This document shows positions 1-19,349 of a stretch of 32,659 bases of DNA, piece after piece. The DNA is from Sphingomonadales bacterium (GTDB taxonomy: Bacteria; Pseudomonadota; Alphaproteobacteria; Sphingomonadales; Sphingomonadaceae), in assembly GCA_027486895.1 (NCBI GenBank), contig JAIXOE010000061.1:1-32659 (forward strand), written 5' to 3'. The position numbers were made by a program, and so were the translations under genes. Position 1 is the stretch's first letter. The number at the start of each line of letters is the position of its first letter. The notes below the pieces were generated by a model. It saw only the letters and a list, made by a program, of their open reading frames with translations, was not told where the DNA came from and did not search any database.

Positions 1-98
1 GCCGCAGCGAGGCCGCCCGGGCCGGAGCCAACGACGAGGACATCCGTCTGGCGGATTACATCAATCTGGCGAGCAGGTTCAAGGATGGAGGTACTCAT
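1..98 (-). CDS. FAD-dependent oxidoreductase, N-terminal fragment (runs off the window)
   Basis: Only the first 32 codons are present. They contain an N-terminal beta strand followed by VLVVGSGPGGLAA, a GxGxxG dinucleotide-binding motif of the kind that binds the ADP part of FAD at the start of flavoprotein oxidoreductases. Its ATG overlaps the TGA of betA (ATGA, 4-base overlap), so it is very probably co-transcribed and translationally coupled with the choline operon. The sequence available cannot tell which flavoprotein subfamily it is; a dehydrogenase acting in betaine or methylamine catabolism is a guess from position only. Confidence 0.75.
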   Translation of the reverse strand, partial: MSTSILEPARQIDVIRQTDVLVVGSGPGGLAA

Positions 99-1762
99 CG
101 CTGCGCCGTTTCCCAATTTGGCGCGACGTGGAATGGCGCGTTGGAGGGGGCGAGCATCGGCTTTCCAAGAATATGGTCCGCCCCCTTTTCCCCGATCATG
201 ATCGTCGGCGCGTTAAGGTTGCCGGTTGTGATCGATGGCATTACGCCGCTGTCAATCACGCGCAGGCCCTGAACGCCGATGACACGGAGTTCTGGGTCGA
301 CCACAGCCATTGGGTCCTGCGGGCTCCCCATCTTGCAGGTGCAACTGGGATGGAGAGCGCTTTCGACATGTTCGGCAATGAACGCGTCGATCTGTTCATC
401 GGTCACGCAGTCCGCGCCGGGCTGAATTTCGCGGCCACGGAATGGCGCGAAAGCGGGCTGCTGGAAAATCTCCCGCGTTAGGCGGACGCAGGCGCGCATG
501 TCCGCCCAATCATCGGGGTGGCTCATATAGTTGAACAGGATCTTGGGCTTGTCGTGCGGGTCGGCGCTTTTGAGCGTTACTGTGCCTCGGCTTTTCGAAC
601 GCATGGGCCCAACATGGGCTTGATAGCCGTGCTCGGTGGCTAGCGAGGACCCATCGTAATTGATGGCCATCGGGAAGAAGTGATATTGGATATCGGGATA
701 TTTAATCCCTGCGCGGCTACGTATGAAGCCGCAGCTCTCAAACTGGTTGGACGCGCCTACGCCTTTCCGCCCAAACAGCCATTGCGCGCCGACCATAGCC
801 TTACCGAGCAAGTTCGCCTTGCCATAGAGCGTGATGGGTTGGGTGCAGGCCATTTGGAAATAGAATTCCAGATGATCCTGCAGGTTTGCGCCGACGCCCC
901 GGCGGTCTGCGCGCACTTCAATCCCATGCTCTTTCAACTCCTCTGCCGGGCCGATGCCCGAAAGCTTGAGAAGCTGAACCGAATTGATTGGGCCGCCGGA
1001 CAGAACGACTTCGCGTGCAGCACGCAGCTGGTGTAGCTTGCCCGCTTGTTCATATTCAACGCCGACAGCGCGCGTGCCCTCAAACAGGACGCGCGTCGCC
1101 AGAGCCTGCTCGATGACTTTCAGATTGGGCCGCTTGCGCGCTTCGTAAAGATAGGCTTTGGCAGCCGAACAGCGGGTGCCGTTCCGCACGGTCATGTCCA
1201 TCCGGCCGAAGCCTTCTTGGGCATAACCATTATAGTCTTCGGTTAAGCCATAGCCCGCCTGCTGCGCGGCATCGAGCCAAGCGTGATGCAGCGGGTTGTC
1301 GAGCGGGCCGTAGCTGGTCGACAGCGGGCCATCGCCGCCGCGATATTCATTGCCGCCTTCGGCGCGGCCTTCGGCGCGTTTGAAATAAGGTAGCACATCG
1401 GCATAGCCCCAGCCGGTGGCGCCTTCATCTTCTTTCCAGCGTTCAAAATCGAGCGCATTGCCGCGGACATAGACCAGCCCGTTGATCGACGAAGATCCGC
1501 CCAGTCCCTTACCGCGCGGGCAGTTCAGGCGGCGACCATTCAGATGCGGCTCAGGCTCGCTTTCATAGCCCCAGTTCCACCTTTTTGTGTTCATGGGATA
1601 GGCAAGCGCTGCGGGCATCTGAATGAATATCGACCGATCACTGCCGCCATATTCGAGCAACACCACCTTGTGCTTGCCGTCCGCGCTCAGCCGGTCGGCC
1701 AGCACGCACCCGGCCGATCCCGCCCCGACGATGATGTAATCGGCCGCCTCAATAAGGGGCAT
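95..1762 (-). CDS. betA: Choline dehydrogenase (GMC oxidoreductase)
   Basis: Oxidises choline to betaine aldehyde with FAD, usually at the inner membrane passing electrons to the respiratory chain. The 555-residue product matches the usual BetA length (about 550-560). It has the N-terminal FAD motif VGAGSAG, the GMC signature region around GKGLGGSSSINGLVYVRG, and the C-terminal active-site block HPSCTCKMG plus the GNLNAPT segment that supplies the second His/Asn-type catalytic position. The ATG at 1762 is preferred over an in-frame start 21 bases upstream because the family begins just before the DYIIVGAG strand. It overlaps the end of the betI-betB fusion by 14 bases, pointing to coupled translation. 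Substrate specificity for choline is inferred mainly from the neighbouring betaine-aldehyde dehydrogenase and BetI domain. Confidence 0.93.
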   Translation of the reverse strand: MPLIEAADYIIVGAGSAGCVLADRLSADGKHKVVLLEYGGSDRSIFIQMPAALAYPMNTKRWNWGYESEPEPHLNGRRLNCPRGKGLGGSSSINGLVYVRGNALDFERWKEDEGATGWGYADVLPYFKRAEGRAEGGNEYRGGDGPLSTSYGPLDNPLHHAWLDAAQQAGYGLTEDYNGYAQEGFGRMDMTVRNGTRCSAAKAYLYEARKRPNLKVIEQALATRVLFEGTRAVGVEYEQAGKLHQLRAAREVVLSGGPINSVQLLKLSGIGPAEELKEHGIEVRADRRGVGANLQDHLEFYFQMACTQPITLYGKANLLGKAMVGAQWLFGRKGVGASNQFESCGFIRSRAGIKYPDIQYHFFPMAINYDGSSLATEHGYQAHVGPMRSKSRGTVTLKSADPHDKPKILFNYMSHPDDWADMRACVRLTREIFQQPAFAPFRGREIQPGADCVTDEQIDAFIAEHVESALHPSCTCKMGSPQDPMAVVDPELRVIGVQGLRVIDSGVMPSITTGNLNAPTIMIGEKGADHILGKPMLAPSNAPFHVAPNWETAQR

Positions 1763-3746
1763 CGATCTTCTCCATCGCGACATAGACGCTCTTCAACTGG
1801 GTATAGTGCTCAATCGCCGCGCGCCCGTTTTCGCGCCCGAGACCGGATTGCTTGTTGCCGCCAAACGGCATTTCAATCGGCGTGATATTATAGGTGTTGA
1901 TCCAGCAGGTGCCCGCCTCCAGCGCGGCAATGACGCGGTGGGCCCGCGTCAGGTTGTTGGTGAAGATGCCCGCAGCGAGACCGAAGCTGGTGTTGTTGGC
2001 CCGGGCGACGACCTCTGCTTCATCCTCAAAGTCGAGCACAGCCATGACAGGGCCGAAAATCTCTTCGCGGACAATAGCCATATCGTCGGTGCAGCCAGTG
2101 AAGATGGTTGGTTCGACGAACGACCCTTTTGCCAGTTCGCTGGTCGTCACACGCTTGCCGCCGGTCAGCAAATTTGCACCTTGTTGTTGGCCAAGCGCGA
2201 TATAGCCCAGCACCTTTTCCATATGTGCTGCCGAAATCAGCGCGCCCATTTGAGTGGCAGGGTTAAGTGGATCGCCGATAACCATCGCTTCGGTGCGTGC
2301 CTTGAGCTTGGCGAGAAAGGCATCCCGGACCTTCTTATGGACAAATACGCGCGTCCCGTTCGTACAAACCTCGCCCGCCGAATAGAAATTGGCGAGCAGC
2401 GCGCCTGAAACGGCTTCATCCAGATCGGCATCCTCAAACACGATCAGCGCGGATTTGCCTCCAAGTTCAAACGTTACATATTTGAGGGTGCCTGCCGCAT
2501 CGACCATGACTTTCTTGCCGGTGCCGACTTCCCCTGTGAGCGAAACCTTGGCGATGTCGGGGTGGAGGCTCAGCAACCGGCCAGTGTCAGCCTTGCCCTG
2601 CACGACTTGAAACAGACCATCGGGCAGACCCGCATCGCGATAGGTCTTTTCCAGCTCAATTGCGGTCAGTGGGGTCAGTTCGGCGGGCTTGAAGATCATA
2701 GCGTTGCCGCAAGCCAGCGCGGGCGCGGATTTCCAGCAGGCAATCTGGATGGGGTAGTTCCACGCGCCAATCCCTGCGACGACGCCCAAAGGCTCGCGCC
2801 GGGAATAGCCGAACGCACCCGTGCCAAGATCATGGTGTTCGCCGGCAATCGTGCGGGCGAGCCCGGCATAATATTCAATGCAATCCGCACCCGACAGTAC
2901 GTCTACGGCGATGGTTTCTTGAATGGGCTTTCCGGTATCCTGCGCTTCAAGTCGCGCGATCGTCTCATTACGCTCAACAAGCAGGGCGGAGGCGCGGTGA
3001 AGGATGCGCCCGCGTTCGACACCGGGTGTTTTCGCCCAAAGCTTTTGCGCCTCGGCGGCACGGGCTACGGCCTTGTTGACCTCTGCCTGCCCGTCGATAC
3101 GGATTGTGGCGAGCAAGGCCCCTGTTGCCGGATTGAGCGTCTCAAAACTGGCAACGGCGGGAGAGGGCGCGGCACCCTTCAGATTGCGCGCGATGAAGTC
3201 AAAGATCAGGTCACGCGCCAGACCATTTTGCAGTGCTGATCCGCCGTTCATCGCTGCGCGCAGCCAGACGCCATCGACCATCGCGGCGATGGTGTCCGCC
3301 ATGGGGGATACGTCCTGTGCGTCGACCAGCTGGCGCAAATCAAATTTGAGGTTGGATAACATGCGCTTTTGATGTGCGCGCTGCACGCGGGCAAGTTGCG
3401 GCACATGAAGCGCCTGTCCCCAGAAAGACAACCAAACCCGGGCCGTTTCCTCGGAAAAATCGTTATGTCCCAGATGAGAGTCAACGAGCGCCTGTATGCG
3501 CGCGCGGGGCCCGGCGGCGAACCGGAGACGCGCCGTTGCCTGATTGTTCAACTGACGCACTACGGCGCGGAAGGCGGCTTCAAGAAGGGCCTCTTTGCTA
3601 CTGAAATAATGAACAATCAGCGCTGCCGATACATCTGCTTGCTGCGCAACTTTGTTAAACGTGAATTCAACTATCCCATTTTCAGCTAAAACGTGGATTG
3701 CTGAAGCAATAATATGTTGGTGGCGATCAGCTCTAATTGTAGTCAT
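1749..3746 (-). CDS. betI-betB: Fused BetI repressor - betaine-aldehyde dehydrogenase (BetI-BetB)
   Basis: One uninterrupted 665-residue frame. Residues 1-190 are a TetR/BetI repressor: helix-turn-helix around 30-50 (NKVAQQADVS...IVHYF) and BetI-specific stretches VWLSFWGQALH (104-114), RMLSNL (128-133) and MVDGVWLRAAMNG (156-168). A short Ala/Pro linker (about 191-199) leads straight into an aldehyde dehydrogenase from FETLNPATG (201-209) to the C-terminus. The catalytic set is intact: Asn330 (GAWNYP), Lys353 (FKPAE), Glu427 (FELGGKS), Cys461 (GEVCTNGTR). This domain would oxidise betaine aldehyde to glycine betaine with NAD(P)+. BetI and BetB are normally separate proteins of about 195 and 490 residues. 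Here roughly the first 22 residues of BetB are missing and no ATG or GTG lies near the junction. The ATG at 3746 is chosen over a TTG at 3761 because predicted transcription begins at about 3746. It is first in the operon, with betA overlapping its end. Confidence 0.93.
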   Translation of the reverse strand: MTTIRADRHQHIIASAIHVLAENGIVEFTFNKVAQQADVSAALIVHYFSSKEALLEAAFRAVVRQLNNQATARLRFAAGPRARIQALVDSHLGHNDFSEETARVWLSFWGQALHVPQLARVQRAHQKRMLSNLKFDLRQLVDAQDVSPMADTIAAMVDGVWLRAAMNGGSALQNGLARDLIFDFIARNLKGAAPSPAVASFETLNPATGALLATIRIDGQAEVNKAVARAAEAQKLWAKTPGVERGRILHRASALLVERNETIARLEAQDTGKPIQETIAVDVLSGADCIEYYAGLARTIAGEHHDLGTGAFGYSRREPLGVVAGIGAWNYPIQIACWKSAPALACGNAMIFKPAELTPLTAIELEKTYRDAGLPDGLFQVVQGKADTGRLLSLHPDIAKVSLTGEVGTGKKVMVDAAGTLKYVTFELGGKSALIVFEDADLDEAVSGALLANFYSAGEVCTNGTRVFVHKKVRDAFLAKLKARTEAMVIGDPLNPATQMGALISAAHMEKVLGYIALGQQQGANLLTGGKRVTTSELAKGSFVEPTIFTGCTDDMAIVREEIFGPVMAVLDFEDEAEVVARANNTSFGLAAGIFTNNLTRAHRVIAALEAGTCWINTYNITPIEMPFGGNKQSGLGRENGRAAIEHYTQLKSVYVAMEKIDAPY

Positions 3747-3751
3747 AACAG

Positions 3752-3780
3752 AGCATAACAAATATTGAACGCTTATTCAA
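3752..3780 (-). promoter_or_regulatory. Promoter of the bet operon with overlapping BetI-like operator
   Basis: On the minus strand TTGAAT (3780-3775) and TATGCT (3757-3752) are separated by 17 bases, each matching four of six consensus positions. The predicted start point is at about 3745-3746, which is the ATG itself, and no Shine-Dalgarno sequence is visible, so a leaderless mRNA is likely. The dyad TTGAA-N6-TTCAA (3765-3780) covers the -35 element and spacer. It resembles, from memory, the BetI sites of E. coli and Vibrio, which share a CGTTCAAT half. Repression by the fusion protein is inferred. Confidence 0.6.
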
Positions 3781-4017
3781 CTGCGCCCAGCAAAGAGTGT
3801 CGTTCACCTTCACTCCGGTAAGCTACAGAATGATCCACTTCAACCGGCCTTCAGGGAGCCGCTGAACACTTGTGCTATTTCGATCTGTTGCGAAATGCAA
3901 AACGGAGAAGCTGGTACCAAAGTGGTCTCGGGTAACGCATCATCCGCTTAAATCGGTGCCGCGTTTGTCGCGTTGGGACAACGGCGGTCCGGTAGTAAAC
4001 GCTTATTATTGCCGCCA

Positions 4018-13961: not shown

Positions 13962-15308
13962 ATGACTGTAAACCTCGCCAATTGGATAGCCGAGCATAAG
14001 ATCGATGAGGTCGAATGCATCGTTCCTGACATTAACGGTGTGCAGCGCGGCAAGGTATTGCCGGCCAAGAAATTCCTTTCATCCGTCCGTGACAAATCGC
14101 TCCGTATTCCTGGTAGCGTATTTATCTGTACGATTGATGGCCATTATCCCGAAGACATCGAAGACATTTGGGACAAGGATCCCGACAAAATCCTGATCGC
14201 TGATCCGGACACGATTTGTGTCGCGCCCGGTTTTAAATCGCCAACAGCATTTGTGATCGCCGACGTCCTGCACGGTAATGGGACTGAAGTGGAAATCGCG
14301 CCACGCACGATATTGAAGAAGATCCTCGGCCTTTACGCCAGTCGTGGGTGGAAGCCCATTATGGCGCCTGAGGTTGAATTCTATCTGGTAAGCCAGAATG
14401 TCGATCCTGACTTTCCGCTTGTGCCGCCAACGGGGTCGAGCGGACGGGCAGAAACCGCGAGCCAGCCTTATGGTCTCGAGGCGATGAACGAGTATGAAGA
14501 CATCATTGATCACATCTACGATGACTGTGAACTCATGGGTCTCGACATCGATACGATGATCCACGAAATGGGTGCTGCGCAGCTTGAGGTGAACTTTATC
14601 CACGGCGATCCGCTGAAGCTTGCTGATCAGGTATTTCTGTTCAAACGCGTTGTGCGGGCCGTGGCCAAACAGCATGGCGTTTATGCGACATTCATGGCCA
14701 ACCCTATGGCTGGCCAACCGGGCAGCGCGATGCATATTCACCAATCTGTGGTGGATGCCGAGACGGGTCGCAATCTGTTTTCGAACGCAAATGGCCGCGA
14801 CAGTGCGCTTTTCCGGAGTTACATCGCCGGGCTGGTGAAGTTCATGCCACAAGTGTCGCCGCTTTGGGCGCCCAACGTGAACAGCTTCCGCCGGATGCGC
14901 CCGGACAGTGCCGCGCCGATTAACGTCCAATGGGGCGAAGACAATCGGAGCTGCGGCTTCCGCGTGCCGATTTCCGACAAGGCCAATCGCCGCGTCGAAA
15001 ACCGCTTACCCGGGGCTGACTCTAACCCATATCTCGCCATGTCCGCATCTTTGGTCTGTGGCTATATCGGCATGGTAGAGCGCATGATTCCGGCAAAGGC
15101 CATCACTGGCAGCGCCTACAACCGCGCACGCACGCTGCCTCGCACTTTGGAAGCAGCACTAGACCGCTTCAGCGCCTGCAAACCCGTCCGCAACCTGATT
15201 GGCGAAGAGTTTTTCGACATCTTCTATGCAATTAAAGACTATGAATTGTTCAACTACCAATCGGTCGTATCTAGCTGGGAACGCGAGCATTTGTTGCTGA
15301 GAGTGTAA
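13962..15308 (+). CDS. puuA: Gamma-glutamyl-amine ligase (glutamine synthetase-like, PuuA type)
   Basis: A 448-residue member of the glutamine synthetase superfamily. It shows the GS catalytic core: EVEFYLV (metal Glu), the HEMGAAQLEVNF block with two further metal-ligand Glu, GSAMHIHQS (metal and substrate His), NSFRRMRP, and ENRLPGADSNPYLA. The N-terminal domain lacks the conserved DGSS latch that forms the ammonium site in true glutamine synthetase, consistent with an organic amine acceptor such as putrescine (ATP-dependent gamma-glutamylation). Its stop overlaps the ATG of the PuuB-like oxidase (TAATG), so the two steps are coupled. The exact amine is unproven; ethanolamine or spermidine are alternatives. 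Confidence 0.85.
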   Translation: MTVNLANWIAEHKIDEVECIVPDINGVQRGKVLPAKKFLSSVRDKSLRIPGSVFICTIDGHYPEDIEDIWDKDPDKILIADPDTICVAPGFKSPTAFVIADVLHGNGTEVEIAPRTILKKILGLYASRGWKPIMAPEVEFYLVSQNVDPDFPLVPPTGSSGRAETASQPYGLEAMNEYEDIIDHIYDDCELMGLDIDTMIHEMGAAQLEVNFIHGDPLKLADQVFLFKRVVRAVAKQHGVYATFMANPMAGQPGSAMHIHQSVVDAETGRNLFSNANGRDSALFRSYIAGLVKFMPQVSPLWAPNVNSFRRMRPDSAAPINVQWGEDNRSCGFRVPISDKANRRVENRLPGADSNPYLAMSASLVCGYIGMVERMIPAKAITGSAYNRARTLPRTLEAALDRFSACKPVRNLIGEEFFDIFYAIKDYELFNYQSVVSSWEREHLLLRV

Positions 15309-16579
15309 TGCCTGATCGGTTGAATGACAGCTATTATCGATCGGCTGCTAATGCGTGGGAAACGCAGCCTACACTGGACTCCGGTTTGGACTGCGACGTC
15401 GTTGTCATTGGCGGCGGCTTTACTGGATTGTCAGCCGCTTTAGCGTGCGCCGAAAAAGGCCTGTTTGTCATATTGCTTGAGGCCCAGACTATAGGTTTCG
15501 GCGCATCGGGCCGCAATGGCGGGCAGCTTATTCCGGGGCTTCGTTGGTCGATGCGTGAAATAGACGAGGAGTTTGGTCGCGAGCGGGCAAAAGCCATATT
15601 CGATTTGGCATGGGGCGCAGGTGCGCGCGTGCATGACCGTATCGTCAAGCATGATATCCAATGCGATCTGAAATCCGGCCATTTGGAAGCCGCCTACAAG
15701 CCGGGGCATTTCGAAGATATGCAGCGCGAGGCAGAATTCTTGTCACGCGAATTTGGCTGGGATTCAGTCGAAGTTGTCGCACCTGCCGACATAGGCAGAC
15801 ACATCAACGGAGGTGACTATCACGGCGGCCTTTATGAAACCAAAGGCGGGCATTTCCATCCGTTGAACTATGCGCTTGGACTAGCAAAAGCTGCGCTGGC
15901 GGCAGGTGTTTTGATATTCGAAAATACCGCTGCGCAAAGGCAGTTGGATAGAGGAACCTATGTCGAGATACAGGCCGGGGCAGGATCGCTGACTGCCAAT
16001 CAGATTATCATTGCGACTGATAACTGGACGGGCGATATCGCGCCGGAACTGAGCAGCTACACCGTCCCGATCATGAACTATAACATCGCGACGGCGCCGC
16101 TGCCCGATGCAGACCAGCTTTTGCCAAGCGATGCAGCGGTTGCGGACAGCAGGTTTGTTTTAAATTATTTCCGCTTAAGCGCTGACAAACGCCTGATTTT
16201 TGGTGGCGGTGAGAAATATGTCCAGAGGCCGCCGGCCGACATTGCGGGATTTGTCCGAAAGCATATGGCGGAGGTCTTTCCCTCGCTGGCCCGGACAACT
16301 ATCGATTATGCATGGGGTGGTGCAGTGGGTGTAACGATGAACCGGCTGCCGCATATGGGGCGCAAAGGGAATGTTTTTTATGCGCACGGCTTTTCAGGCC
16401 ACGGCGCATTGGTGACAACGGTTGCTGGCGAGTTGATGGCTGAGGCGGTGGTTGGCACGATGGAGCAGTTCGACGTCTTTGCCAGCCTGCCGCACAGCCG
16501 CTTTCCCGGTGGAAAATGGCTGGCCCGACCGCTCGCGACACTTGGACTGCTCTATTACGCGATGCGAGACCGGTTGTGA
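15308..16579 (+). CDS. puuB: FAD-dependent amine oxidase (gamma-glutamylputrescine oxidase-like)
   Basis: A 423-residue DAO/PuuB-type flavoprotein. The N-terminal dinucleotide-binding motif is DVVVIGGGFTGLSAAL, followed by LLEAQTIGFGASGRNGGQL, the second FAD-contact motif, which is highly typical of PuuB and glycine-oxidase relatives. Near the C-terminus, GVTMNRLPHMGR and FYAHGFSGHGALVTTVAGEL form the conserved FAD-binding end. It would oxidise the gamma-glutamylated amine made by the preceding ligase to an aldehyde, with release of hydrogen peroxide and an amine or ammonia. It begins on the A of the ligase stop codon. The product specificity is taken from the cluster. Confidence 0.88.
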   Translation: MPDRLNDSYYRSAANAWETQPTLDSGLDCDVVVIGGGFTGLSAALACAEKGLFVILLEAQTIGFGASGRNGGQLIPGLRWSMREIDEEFGRERAKAIFDLAWGAGARVHDRIVKHDIQCDLKSGHLEAAYKPGHFEDMQREAEFLSREFGWDSVEVVAPADIGRHINGGDYHGGLYETKGGHFHPLNYALGLAKAALAAGVLIFENTAAQRQLDRGTYVEIQAGAGSLTANQIIIATDNWTGDIAPELSSYTVPIMNYNIATAPLPDADQLLPSDAAVADSRFVLNYFRLSADKRLIFGGGEKYVQRPPADIAGFVRKHMAEVFPSLARTTIDYAWGGAVGVTMNRLPHMGRKGNVFYAHGFSGHGALVTTVAGELMAEAVVGTMEQFDVFASLPHSRFPGGKWLARPLATLGLLYYAMRDRL

Positions 16580-17922
16580 TTGCACGGGCCGCGATCGAGG
16601 TGATGCGCGCGCGTGAGGTCGCGCGGTTCATCGCAGCGAACCCTAAGTCGCATGCGCAGTCCAAAGCGTCGACAGGCTGGTTTCAGGGCGTTCCATTCCA
16701 CTGGATGCTGGATTGGTCGAGTCCGTTTCCCATCGTCGCCCAAAGCGCCAAGGGCGCAACGCTCACCAGCATCGACGGACAAGTGTTTGACGATTTTTGC
16801 CTTGGCGATACCGCCAGCATGTTTGGCCATTCGCCGCAGCCATTGGTCGATGCGCTAACCGAGCAGGCCGGGCAGGGGCTGAGCTATATGCTCCCCACGT
16901 CAAAGGGCGCTGATGTCGGCGATATGCTCGCTGCGATGTTCGGGCTGCCGCAATGGCAAGTCACGACCACGGCAAGCGAGGCAAACCGCGCCGTCATTCG
17001 CTGGTGTCGTGGGCTAACGGGGCGCGACAAGATTTTGATCTTCAATGGCTGTTATCATGGCGCGGTCGATGACGTTTTCGTTGACCTGCGCAATGGCCAA
17101 GCGGTCAACCGGCCAAGCCTGATCGGGCAGGTGCAGGATTTGCTGCCGACCACGGTTGCAATCGAGTTTAACGATGTTGACGCGTTGGCTGCCGCGTTGC
17201 GTGCCAGCGACATCGCGTGCGTGCTCGCTGAACCACTCATGACCAATATCGGTATGGTGCGAGACGCGCCGGGCTTTCTGGACACGTTGCGTCAGCTGTG
17301 TGACGAAACAGGAACGATCTTGGTACTTGATGAAACCCACACGATCTCGTCGGGCTATGGCGGGCACAGCAATGCACACGGGCCAAAGCCCGACATCATG
17401 GTCGTGGGCAAATCCATCGGCGGTGGCGTGCCGTGTGCGGTGTATGGTTTCACGGCCGAGATTGCGGAAAAGATGGCGGCACTGAACCAGTCGCGCCCGC
17501 CGGGCCATAGCGGCATTGGCACGACATTGTCTGCCAACGCGCTTGCTATCTCGGCTATGCACGCGATGTTGAGGCACGTCATTACGCGTGATGCCTATGC
17601 GCATATGCTATCGACGGCTAACCGGCTGGTATCGCAATTGACCGCCGTTATCACCGCGCATGACCTTGACTGGCACGTCAGTCACGTCGGTGCCCGCGTT
17701 GAAATGATCTGCTCTGCTGCGCCGCCGCTTAACGGAAGCGAAGCGCGTGCCGCAATGGACCATGCCTTGGAAAGTGCGGTTCATCTGTACCTGGCCAACC
17801 GCGGCATTTTGTTGGCGCCCTTTCATAATATGATGCTCGTCAGCCCCGTGACAGCGCCGGCGCAAGTCGACCGGTTGGCGTTTGAGTTGAACAATGCGCT
17901 GACTGAGCTACAAGCGTTTTGA
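16576..17922 (+). CDS. Class III PLP-dependent aminotransferase (glutamate-1-semialdehyde aminomutase-like)
   Basis: About 448 residues, fold-type I class III. Visible features are TTTASEANRAVIRWCRGLTG (start of the cofactor phosphate-binding region), NGCYHG (aromatic residue stacking on PLP), LVLDETHTISSGYGG (the Asp that contacts the PLP ring nitrogen, with DETH instead of the more common DEV), and VVGKSIGGGVP containing the Schiff-base Lys. A GTG at 16576 is chosen since it overlaps the oxidase stop (GTGA); an ATG at 16603 is also possible, and an ATG at 16516 would overlap the oxidase by 64 bases. In this cluster it likely transaminates a polyamine-derived amine or aldehyde such as putrescine or GABA. 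Substrate is inferred. Confidence 0.82.
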   Translation: MIARAAIEVMRAREVARFIAANPKSHAQSKASTGWFQGVPFHWMLDWSSPFPIVAQSAKGATLTSIDGQVFDDFCLGDTASMFGHSPQPLVDALTEQAGQGLSYMLPTSKGADVGDMLAAMFGLPQWQVTTTASEANRAVIRWCRGLTGRDKILIFNGCYHGAVDDVFVDLRNGQAVNRPSLIGQVQDLLPTTVAIEFNDVDALAAALRASDIACVLAEPLMTNIGMVRDAPGFLDTLRQLCDETGTILVLDETHTISSGYGGHSNAHGPKPDIMVVGKSIGGGVPCAVYGFTAEIAEKMAALNQSRPPGHSGIGTTLSANALAISAMHAMLRHVITRDAYAHMLSTANRLVSQLTAVITAHDLDWHVSHVGARVEMICSAAPPLNGSEARAAMDHALESAVHLYLANRGILLAPFHNMMLVSPVTAPAQVDRLAFELNNALTELQAF

Positions 17923-17945
17923 ACCAGTTAAGCGAAAGTGAAGTC

Positions 17946-19349
17946 ATGACAATCAAGCGGGCCAAGTCATCTGCGACCATCGCGGCACGAAACGAGGCTG
18001 AAGCCTTTTTCGCTGCGAACCCCGATATTGACTCCGTCGAGATGATTTACACTGATATGGGCGGCGTCCCGCGCGGCAAACGGCTTCGCCAGCATGAGGT
18101 GCTGTCCGTCTATGAAATTGGCCGCTTTTTCCCGGGCTCCATCACCGTGGTCGACATCACTGGACAAGATACGGTGGAGACAGGATTGGTCTGGGAGGAT
18201 GGCGACGCTGATCGGTCAATGAAACCAATTCCCGGCACACTTGTGCGGACTCCATGGGCAGGGGACAACGCCGCGCAATTCATGGTCGATTTTTATGAGT
18301 TGGATGGCCAGCCGCATGATCTGGACTCGCGGCATGTGCTGGGTCTGGTGGTTGATCGTTTTGCAGAAATGGGCCTGACCCCCGCATTGGCGGTTGAGCT
18401 TGAGTTTTACCTGCTGGACCCAAAGCGTGCGCGTGATGGTTCCATTCGCCCCGCGCGTCCTGATTACAACCATGAAACGCCGCAAATGGTTGAGGTCTAT
18501 GGCCTGCGTGAGCTGGATGATTTCCGGCCATTCTTTGATGAGCTCTATGAGACCTGCGATGTTCAGGGGCTGCCTCTCGAATCCGCCATTTCCGAATTCG
18601 CGCCGGGGCAGTGCGAACTGACATTGCGTTACAAGCCCGACGTATTGCGGGCGTGCGATGATGCGATCATGTATAAACGTGTAGTGAAGGCTGTGGCGCA
18701 AGCGCACGGTCTGGAAGCGACTTTCATGGCCAAACCGTTCGCTGAACAAGCAGGCTCAGGCATGCATATTCACGTGTCGATGAACGACAGCGACGGGAAG
18801 AACCTATTCGCTTCGGACGATCCCGAAGGCACCCCAATGTTGCGTCATGCCATTGGTGGCATGATATCAGCTGTGGGCGATTGTTTTGCGCTGTTTGCGC
18901 CGCATGCCAACAGCTACCGCCGGTTCAAAGCGAACAGCTATGCGCCGGTCGCGCCGACATGGGGCGTCAACAACCGTACGGTATCGTTTCGCATACCCGC
19001 AGGCCCGCCCTCCAGCCGCCATGTTGAACATCGCGCCTGTGGAGCTGACGCAAACCCCTATCTGGCCGTAGCAGGCGTGCTCGCTGGTATTCACCATGGC
19101 ATCATTAATGAGATAGATCCCGGCCCAGCCGTCGTTGGCAATGGTTATGACCGCGATAGCTCCGGCGATGATAAGCCACCAAGCAACTGGTTTGCAGCCG
19201 TTGACCGCTTCCATGGTTCAAAGCTGATGCGCGAATATCTGGGTGAACGGTTTGTCGATATGTTCACGATCGTCAAACGCGTCGAACAGGACCGTTATTT
19301 CGGTCAGGTGCCTTCAATCGATTATGATTGGTATCTGCGAAACGCCTAA
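17946..19349 (+). CDS. Second gamma-glutamyl-amine ligase (glutamine synthetase-like)
   Basis: A 467-residue GS-superfamily protein, clearly divergent from the one at 13962. The catalytic motifs are AVELEFYLLD, ISEFAPGQCELTL (the classical GQxE-type block), GSGMHIHVSM, NSYRRFKANSYAP and EHRACGADANPYLA. The N-terminal domain again lacks the DGSS ammonium-site latch. It follows the aminotransferase by 23 bases (ATG at 17946); a TTG at 17919 would overlap the previous stop. Two ligases in one cluster suggest different amines, for example a diamine and a monoamine or spermidine, as in pseudomonad PauA sets. No gene for the aldehyde dehydrogenase or gamma-glutamyl hydrolase steps lies nearby. Confidence 0.85.
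   Translation: MTIKRAKSSATIAARNEAEAFFAANPDIDSVEMIYTDMGGVPRGKRLRQHEVLSVYEIGRFFPGSITVVDITGQDTVETGLVWEDGDADRSMKPIPGTLVRTPWAGDNAAQFMVDFYELDGQPHDLDSRHVLGLVVDRFAEMGLTPALAVELEFYLLDPKRARDGSIRPARPDYNHETPQMVEVYGLRELDDFRPFFDELYETCDVQGLPLESAISEFAPGQCELTLRYKPDVLRACDDAIMYKRVVKAVAQAHGLEATFMAKPFAEQAGSGMHIHVSMNDSDGKNLFASDDPEGTPMLRHAIGGMISAVGDCFALFAPHANSYRRFKANSYAPVAPTWGVNNRTVSFRIPAGPPSSRHVEHRACGADANPYLAVAGVLAGIHHGIINEIDPGPAVVGNGYDRDSSGDDKPPSNWFAAVDRFHGSKLMREYLGERFVDMFTIVKRVEQDRYFGQVPSIDYDWYLRNA

Follow-up and report, generated by a model that had tools for sequence, protein, structure and literature searches.

In Escherichia coli, the bet operon has the gene order betI-betB-betA with an ATTGAA/TTCAAT-type palindrome upstream, and BetI and BetB are separate chains. 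A precedent for a repressor's DNA-binding domain being attached to catabolic enzymes that the same operon encodes, among them a member of the aldehyde dehydrogenase (ALDH) superfamily, is PutA, the trifunctional proline utilisation protein, which senses proline through flavin reduction. Here we describe a sphingomonad locus that has the domain families, gene order and type of upstream palindrome of the E. coli operon, and in which BetI and BetB are joined in one open frame. The gene, which we call betIB, lies on contig JAIXOE010000061.1 of the Sphingomonadales bacterium assembly GCA_027486895.1; the 32,659 nucleotides analyzed are referred to as the window. We consider it likely that betIB encodes a single bifunctional protein, both autorepressor and enzyme, and its origin in a single fusion is probable.

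On the minus strand, positions 1749 to 3746 form one open reading frame (ORF) of 665 codons that starts with an ATG at 3746; an alternative TTG start at 3761 would yield a protein of 670 amino acids. The N-terminal half comprises a TetR_N helix-turn-helix (residues 12-58; 3573 to 3713) and a BetI-type C-terminal domain, TetR_C_6 (residues 80-189; 3180 to 3509), which score 42.5 bits against Pfam model PF00440 (cut-off 24) and 86 bits against PF13977 (cut-off 27). This half also passes the NCBIfam equivalog NF001978 (167.5 versus a cut-off of 118). A variable linker (residues 190-199; 3150 to 3179), predicted to be disordered at residues 191-197, leads to an Aldedh domain (residues 200-654; 1785 to 3149), which Pfam, NCBIfam and Foldseek together assign to betaine-aldehyde dehydrogenase (BADH). 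The BetB half passes the equivalog NF009725 with 762.1 bits (cut-off 593) and fails TIGR01804 (654.9 versus 668.6), its match beginning at model position 14; a fusion from Komagataeibacter that retains the N-terminus of BetB passes TIGR01804 with 687.5. All catalytic residues of BetB are present, as judged by alignment: Asn330, Lys353, the general base Glu427 (codon at 2466 to 2468), Cys461 (codon at 2364 to 2366) and Glu562. The corresponding Asn, Lys, Glu, Cys and Glu are intact in all 25 intact-type fusions aligned. The 3' end of betIB is overlapped by betA (95 to 1762, minus strand), which encodes choline dehydrogenase (TIGR01810, 834.6 bits versus a cut-off of 732.1). The likeliest betA start is ATG 1762, with a GGAG before it in the final part of betIB; ATG 1783 is the other candidate. 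The initial annotation of the window had proposed a natural BetI-BetB fusion with recognizable helix-turn-helix and BetI features and with intact catalytic Asn, Lys, Glu and Cys. All of this is borne out by the single frame, the domain scores and the conservation in relatives described below.

To judge how widespread the fusion is, we scanned genomes at several taxonomic levels. Within the genus, 10 of 45 genomes, the window genome included, carry a full-length betIB frame, and the relatives are 88-94% identical. One further genome has a frame with an internal TGA, and two have frames cut by contig ends; in the remaining 32, betIB was not seen, only more distant dehydrogenases. The gene is thus patchily distributed in its genus. 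A relative of the window fusion in a metagenome-assembled genome (MAG; JAJTEF010000046.1, L011 / L048:3947-5653) ends at an in-frame TGA after an ORF of 568 codons, reflecting either decay or an error in the MAG. In the family, 17 of 397 genomes match the BetI half at E <= 1e-20, with frames of 668-724 amino acids in seven genera. BetB is in the same ORF in all 17, and no separate BetI was found among the 397 genomes at this threshold. Named carriers include Sphingorhabdus rigui, S. wooponensis and Chakrabartia godavariana. A betA ORF adjoins the fusion in 27 of the 28 loci that hold both halves, some of which are second copies in one genome; L115:1757-3775 (genome G365) is the only one beside which no betA ORF was found.

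Wider scans show the fusion to be rare. At the level of the order, 18 of 296 genomes match BetI at 1e-15: eight have fusions, eight have frames of 198-267 amino acids in other families, and the two others have 33%-identical TetR matches and belong to the window's family (G521 and G082). In the class, 43 of 385 genomes match BetI at 1e-15, three of them (G676, G659 and G778) with frames of 306-436 amino acids. Among the other matches, fusions with an intact dehydrogenase come from the window genome, G933 and G932, and a fourth fusion, in G844, has a truncated and weakly matching dehydrogenase. In the phylum, 82 of 329 genomes match BetI at 1e-20. Among frames other than those of 307-391 amino acids in G1002 C12, G1020 and G1229, five are fusions, from the window genome, G094, G319, G933 and G1037. 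None was found in the 40 BetI-matching genomes of classes other than Alphaproteobacteria, for which every frame listed is shorter than 260 amino acids. When the class was counted from the enzyme side, BetB matched at 1e-145 in 42 of 337 genomes and was fused only in the window genome; the two other frames over 600 amino acids were inspected. Plasmid records of Komagataeibacter saccharivorans contain a 692-amino-acid fusion followed by betA. Intact fusions outside the family are those of G933, G932, K. saccharivorans and G1037. The fusion is a minority form, yet it is conserved over several alphaproteobacterial families. Several long frames proved not to be fusions. In G608 (663 amino acids), G1006 (674) and G1002 C61 (494), BetI lies at or towards the C-terminal end of the frame; in G582 (680), BetI and BetB are in different ORFs; and in G757 (641), BetI is on the opposite strand.

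Both halves of the fusion are under purifying selection. We estimated ratios of nonsynonymous to synonymous substitution rates (dN/dS) for 12 related coding sequences by the Nei-Gojobori method, as medians over those of the 66 pairs with dS under 2. The median is 0.083 for the BetI half (56 pairs), 0.030 for the BetB half (64 pairs) and 0.525 for linker codons 191-200 (32 pairs). The window protein enters the BetB model at position 21 of 488, which leaves about 20 N-terminal BetB residues missing, and the three sphingomonad fusions scanned enter at 21 or 22. The initial annotation held that fusion had replaced about 22 residues of BetB, including an outer strand. For the sphingomonad fusions this is correct in substance; as a part of fusing in general it is not, because the Komagataeibacter and G933 fusions enter the model at positions 7 and 10, behind a longer linker, and so keep that strand. 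Strand loss is therefore not inherent to fusion. Taken as a whole, the earlier interpretation stands for the fusion, the catalytic set, the dyad and the loss of the strand in sphingomonads, but not for strand loss as a general feature; the feedback that it envisaged between the two halves stays a proposal.

An AlphaFold (AF2) monomer model of betIB, made with 19 rows (10 fusions and nine more distant ALDH sequences), has a mean predicted local distance difference test score (pLDDT) of 82.3. This score is under 50 at linker residues 191-197, and the C-terminal region of BetI is weak. The best solved Foldseek match of the model is the BADH structure 6wsa, with a template modeling (TM) score of 0.95 by target length. 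A dimeric TetR module need not clash with a tetrameric enzyme, as two repressor dimers could conceivably be accommodated per D2 tetramer.

The two domains were placed in separate trees with 19 of the 25 intact fusions; L050, L051, L055, L061 and L062, which are close kin, and L172 were left out. Separate BetI loci L074, L078, L079, L100, L103 and L107 were also omitted, and rows L139 and L144 were dropped as duplicates. The tree of BetI domains groups the 19 intact fusions with three degenerate fusions and the separate BetI L092 in a single clade (93/99). Beside it lie the BetI proteins of G608 and G738, genomes that carry betI, betB and betA as separate, consecutive genes. When distant outgroups were included, a first BetB tree placed the fusions in a partly unresolved group (91/90) together with nine separate BetBs. 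A second, rooted on E. coli and without the distant ALDHs L064-L067, yields a smallest group containing all 19 fusions that has 20 rows. The twentieth is L140, a separate BetB from G707, and the BetB of G738, also separate, branches next. Upstream of the G707 gene (L176:5406-6843), neither BetI nor an N6 palindrome (defined below) was found; this gene possibly lost its BetI half. On the basis of these sequence comparisons, a single fusion of neighboring genes and one later loss or transfer probably explains both domain trees, and two separate fusion events may be an alternative. The source was probably an adjacent betI-betB pair in a betI-betB-betA operon. In G738, betI ends 21 nucleotides before betB, and loss of a stop codon would therefore suffice to create a fusion.

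A dyad had been noted at positions 3765 to 3780, upstream of betIB. It is real, reading TTGAATAAGCGTTCAA on the minus strand, and belongs to an operator-like palindrome, GTTGAATAAGCGTTCAAT (3764 to 3781, minus strand), of the type ATTGAA-N6-TTCAAT with matches at 11 of the 12 half-site bases. When these 12 bases were scored in the 150 bp upstream of genes, the N6 form reached at least 11 for 19 of 24 fused genes, the others scoring 10 (four) or 9 (one), which supports the idea of a conserved operator-like element. Scores of 11-12 were found for all three degenerate fusions, and the G1037 fusion, outside the 24, scores 11. Only six of 34 separate betI genes score 11. In mononucleotide shuffles, a control for the N6 form only, none of 600 reached 11 and 0.7% reached 10. 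The 14-bp form ATTGAA-N2-TTCAAT shows the opposite distribution, with scores of at least 11 before 11 of the 34 separate genes versus one of the 24 fused genes (L129). The E. coli palindrome scores 11 in both forms, and several sites of separate betI genes read ATTGATTGA..GTTCAAT, which contains both the N2 and the N6 spacing. The separate form could thus consist of a pair of N6 sites that overlap, where the fused form would have just one. The palindrome persists even where BetI sequence identity is about 45%. A possible promoter, picked by eye with 8 of 12 consensus matches, occupies 3752 to 3780 on the minus strand (TTGAAT at 3775 to 3780, a 17-nucleotide spacer and TATGCT at 3752 to 3757). 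With this arrangement, the operator could cover the -35 box and transcription could begin near the ATG, giving a possibly leaderless transcript.

Fusions with a degenerate dehydrogenase occur in Methylobacterium. Plasmid pMNOD01 of M. nodulans (L131:3983-6016) encodes a 677-amino-acid protein whose Aldedh domain scores 218 bits, and a relative in M. aquaticum (L134, pMaq22A_1p) is 63% identical to it. In the M. nodulans protein, the active-site words AWNYP, IFKPA and EVCTN are replaced by HWSAA, VLAAD and SSFAG, with similar losses in M. aquaticum. In both fused ALDHs, the catalytic Asn, Lys and Cys are gone and the frame has stayed open; the general-base Glu is a gap in one alignment and Asp in another. 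Comparison of the two proteins gives 80% identity and a dN/dS of about 0.18 for the BetI part, and 59% identity and a dN/dS of about 0.41 for the dehydrogenase part. These BetI domains fall within the fused BetI clade. Judged by these substitutions, the enzyme seems to be dead while its frame is maintained, which would fit decay or a regulatory role, and the dehydrogenase domain is a possible natural pseudoenzyme sensor. A truncated form is seen in G844 (L123:6243-7739), where BetI is fused to a shortened dehydrogenase (Aldedh 67 bits, covering only profile positions 26-195) directly before betA.

We propose that the N-terminal BetI half of the window protein would dimerize and bind the single 18-bp palindrome just upstream of betIB, thereby repressing the betIB-betA operon. 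Repression would be lifted by choline, to which characterized BetI proteins respond. BetA would then yield betaine aldehyde, which the C-terminal BetB half, held on a short flexible linker, would oxidize. Because each enzyme subunit brings a repressor subunit in the same chain, the operon would be negatively autoregulated with enzyme and repressor fixed at 1:1. We infer that BetIB binds DNA, responds to choline, acts as a dehydrogenase and regulates its own operon, and that it arose once. The window genome has a single BetI match at 1e-15, betIB itself, so no other BetI was found to regulate the operon, and the other ALDHs listed are 34-36% identical to betIB. In Ruegeria, choline deregulates the targets of BetI1 (PMC12442346).

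Several observations weigh against this scheme and against a single origin. Induction need not mean that BetI is released from DNA: according to the same source, inducer stimulates the formation of BetI-DNA complexes in E. coli (PMC12442346). The BetI half of the window protein fails the NCBIfam equivalog TIGR03384 (175.9 bits versus 201.3). In the trees, the long-branch separate BetI L092 lies inside the fused clade, which has a bootstrap value of 93; the first BetB tree needs three changes of the fusion state; and strict monophyly of the fused BetBs is rejected by the approximately unbiased test (p-AU 0.0245), with the separate L140 nested inside. Upstream sequences and tree rows are related by descent, so that the counts given above are not independent trials. 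Three of the 24 fused genes (L113, L116 and L129) have their highest N6 score at a site 135-150 bp upstream and not at the palindrome near the start, and L129 fits the N2 form equally well. The strict pattern TTGAAY-N4-RTTCAA has three matches in the window genome, the two others inside ORFs, and a reversed-pattern control has one; the motif alone proves no site. Finally, promoter scanning gave no call at the operator, and the candidate promoter is below consensus.

Alternative explanations must be considered for both the gene and its function. That the frame stems from misassembly or sequencing error, or is a strain-level pseudogene, would agree with the one MAG relative that has an in-frame TGA. 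However, this explanation is refuted by conservation, given that the same architecture is found in 10 of 45 genus genomes, 17 of 397 family genomes and other families and is under purifying selection, and we regard it as hardly conceivable. Production of two polypeptides, through initiation inside the frame or proteolytic cleavage of the linker, would suit a linker that is flexible and variable. Among the 12 related coding sequences, however, a check of codons 176-260 for ATG, GTG and TTG showed that ATG is absent throughout and that neither GTG nor TTG is shared by the whole set, in agreement with the earlier remark that no usable start lies near the junction; an internal restart there was consequently rejected. 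The only start-type codon of the window gene in this interval is TTG 211, and a start at that codon would cut into the Aldedh domain. We therefore judge two polypeptides to be unlikely.

The remaining alternatives accept the single chain and differ in what it does. If the BetI half no longer repressed and were retained as a dimerizing or solubility module for the enzyme, its faster evolution than BetB (dN/dS 0.083 versus 0.030) and its score below the TIGR03384 cut-off would be readily explained. The helix-turn-helix nevertheless scores well above its cut-off (42.5 versus 24 bits), and the palindrome is retained even at about 45% BetI identity, which makes a purely structural role improbable. 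Alternatively, by analogy with PutA, BetIB might be a true trigger enzyme, in which the catalytic state of BetB, with aldehyde or NAD(H) bound, would alter DNA binding by BetI and thus allow aldehyde sensing. Retention of the fusion over several alphaproteobacterial families is consistent with this idea. So is the Methylobacterium protein, a catalytically dead ALDH with an open frame and a dN/dS of about 0.41, as a non-catalytic sensor would be, in an organism (M. nodulans) that has a separate betB nearby, beside choline transporter genes. On the other hand, a linker that is variable and predicted to be disordered disfavors rigid allostery, and the faster evolution of the Methylobacterium dehydrogenase domain (59% identity versus 80% for the BetI part) fits decay as well. 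We view direct sensing by the enzyme as a tentative and less likely alternative. A more elaborate version, in which BetIB is a TetR-based trigger enzyme, Methylobacterium represents a derived pure-sensor state, and the shift from a 14-bp core to a single 18-bp palindrome was part of the change in mechanism, is in our estimation rather doubtful. A bifunctional autorepressor and enzyme is the reading we prefer.

Elsewhere in the window genome, there is one match to a transporter of the betaine-choline-carnitine transporter (BCCT) type (L177, G000:C34:15000-26000). Inspection by eye of 400 bp around the start of this gene revealed no N6 palindrome. ORFs beside it resemble sarcosine oxidase subunits, as judged from reading the ORFs only, which suggests that betaine is used as food. 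Within the window, positions 13962 to 19349 hold a class-III aminotransferase alongside two genes of the glutamine synthetase family, arranged as a single run that resembles a polyamine catabolism cluster.

A TetR repressor attached to an enzyme of its own operon offers a natural test of either a fixed enzyme-to-repressor stoichiometry or direct sensing by the enzyme, and it can be asked with such fusions whether either scheme improves control of a toxic aldehyde. A ready series exists for this purpose: separate genes, catalytic fusions with and without the N-terminal strand of BetB, and fusions with a dead dehydrogenase. The fusion is also an annotation trap, as records with a single name hide one of its halves; public annotation gives betB for the Komagataeibacter protein and betI for that of M. 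nodulans.

Among known systems, PutA is similar in plan, but its DNA-binding domain is a ribbon-helix-helix and its switch is flavin-controlled and involves the membrane, whereas the DNA-binding domain of BetIB belongs to the TetR family and Pfam detected no flavin domain in the protein. Trigger enzymes with an acquired DNA-binding domain are likewise enzymes that control transcription (PMC3901225), and BetIB, by family, combines an enzyme and a DNA-binding domain in one chain as they do. The passages of that source considered here give no BetI or BADH example, and the partner in BetIB is a ready-made, ligand-sensing one-component repressor. The two-BetI system of Ruegeria pomeroyi is another case of alphaproteobacterial BetI variation, in which BetI1 regulates betB through a palindrome (PMC12442346); there, however, BetI and BetB are separate, and the word "fused" is absent from the main text. 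In a tabulation of the bet clusters of many phototrophs (PMC7824335), "fused" refers, in the 12 of its 16 places considered, to methyltransferase genes and one osmolyte. We found no description of a BetI-BetB fusion among the literature matches listed, which leave subscription journals mostly uncovered and are no proof of absence. Repressor-enzyme fusions are already known in kind. What is new here is the prevalence of the ATTGAA-N6-TTCAAT palindrome at fused genes and the existence of Methylobacterium fusions in which the catalytic residues are lost and the frame is kept.

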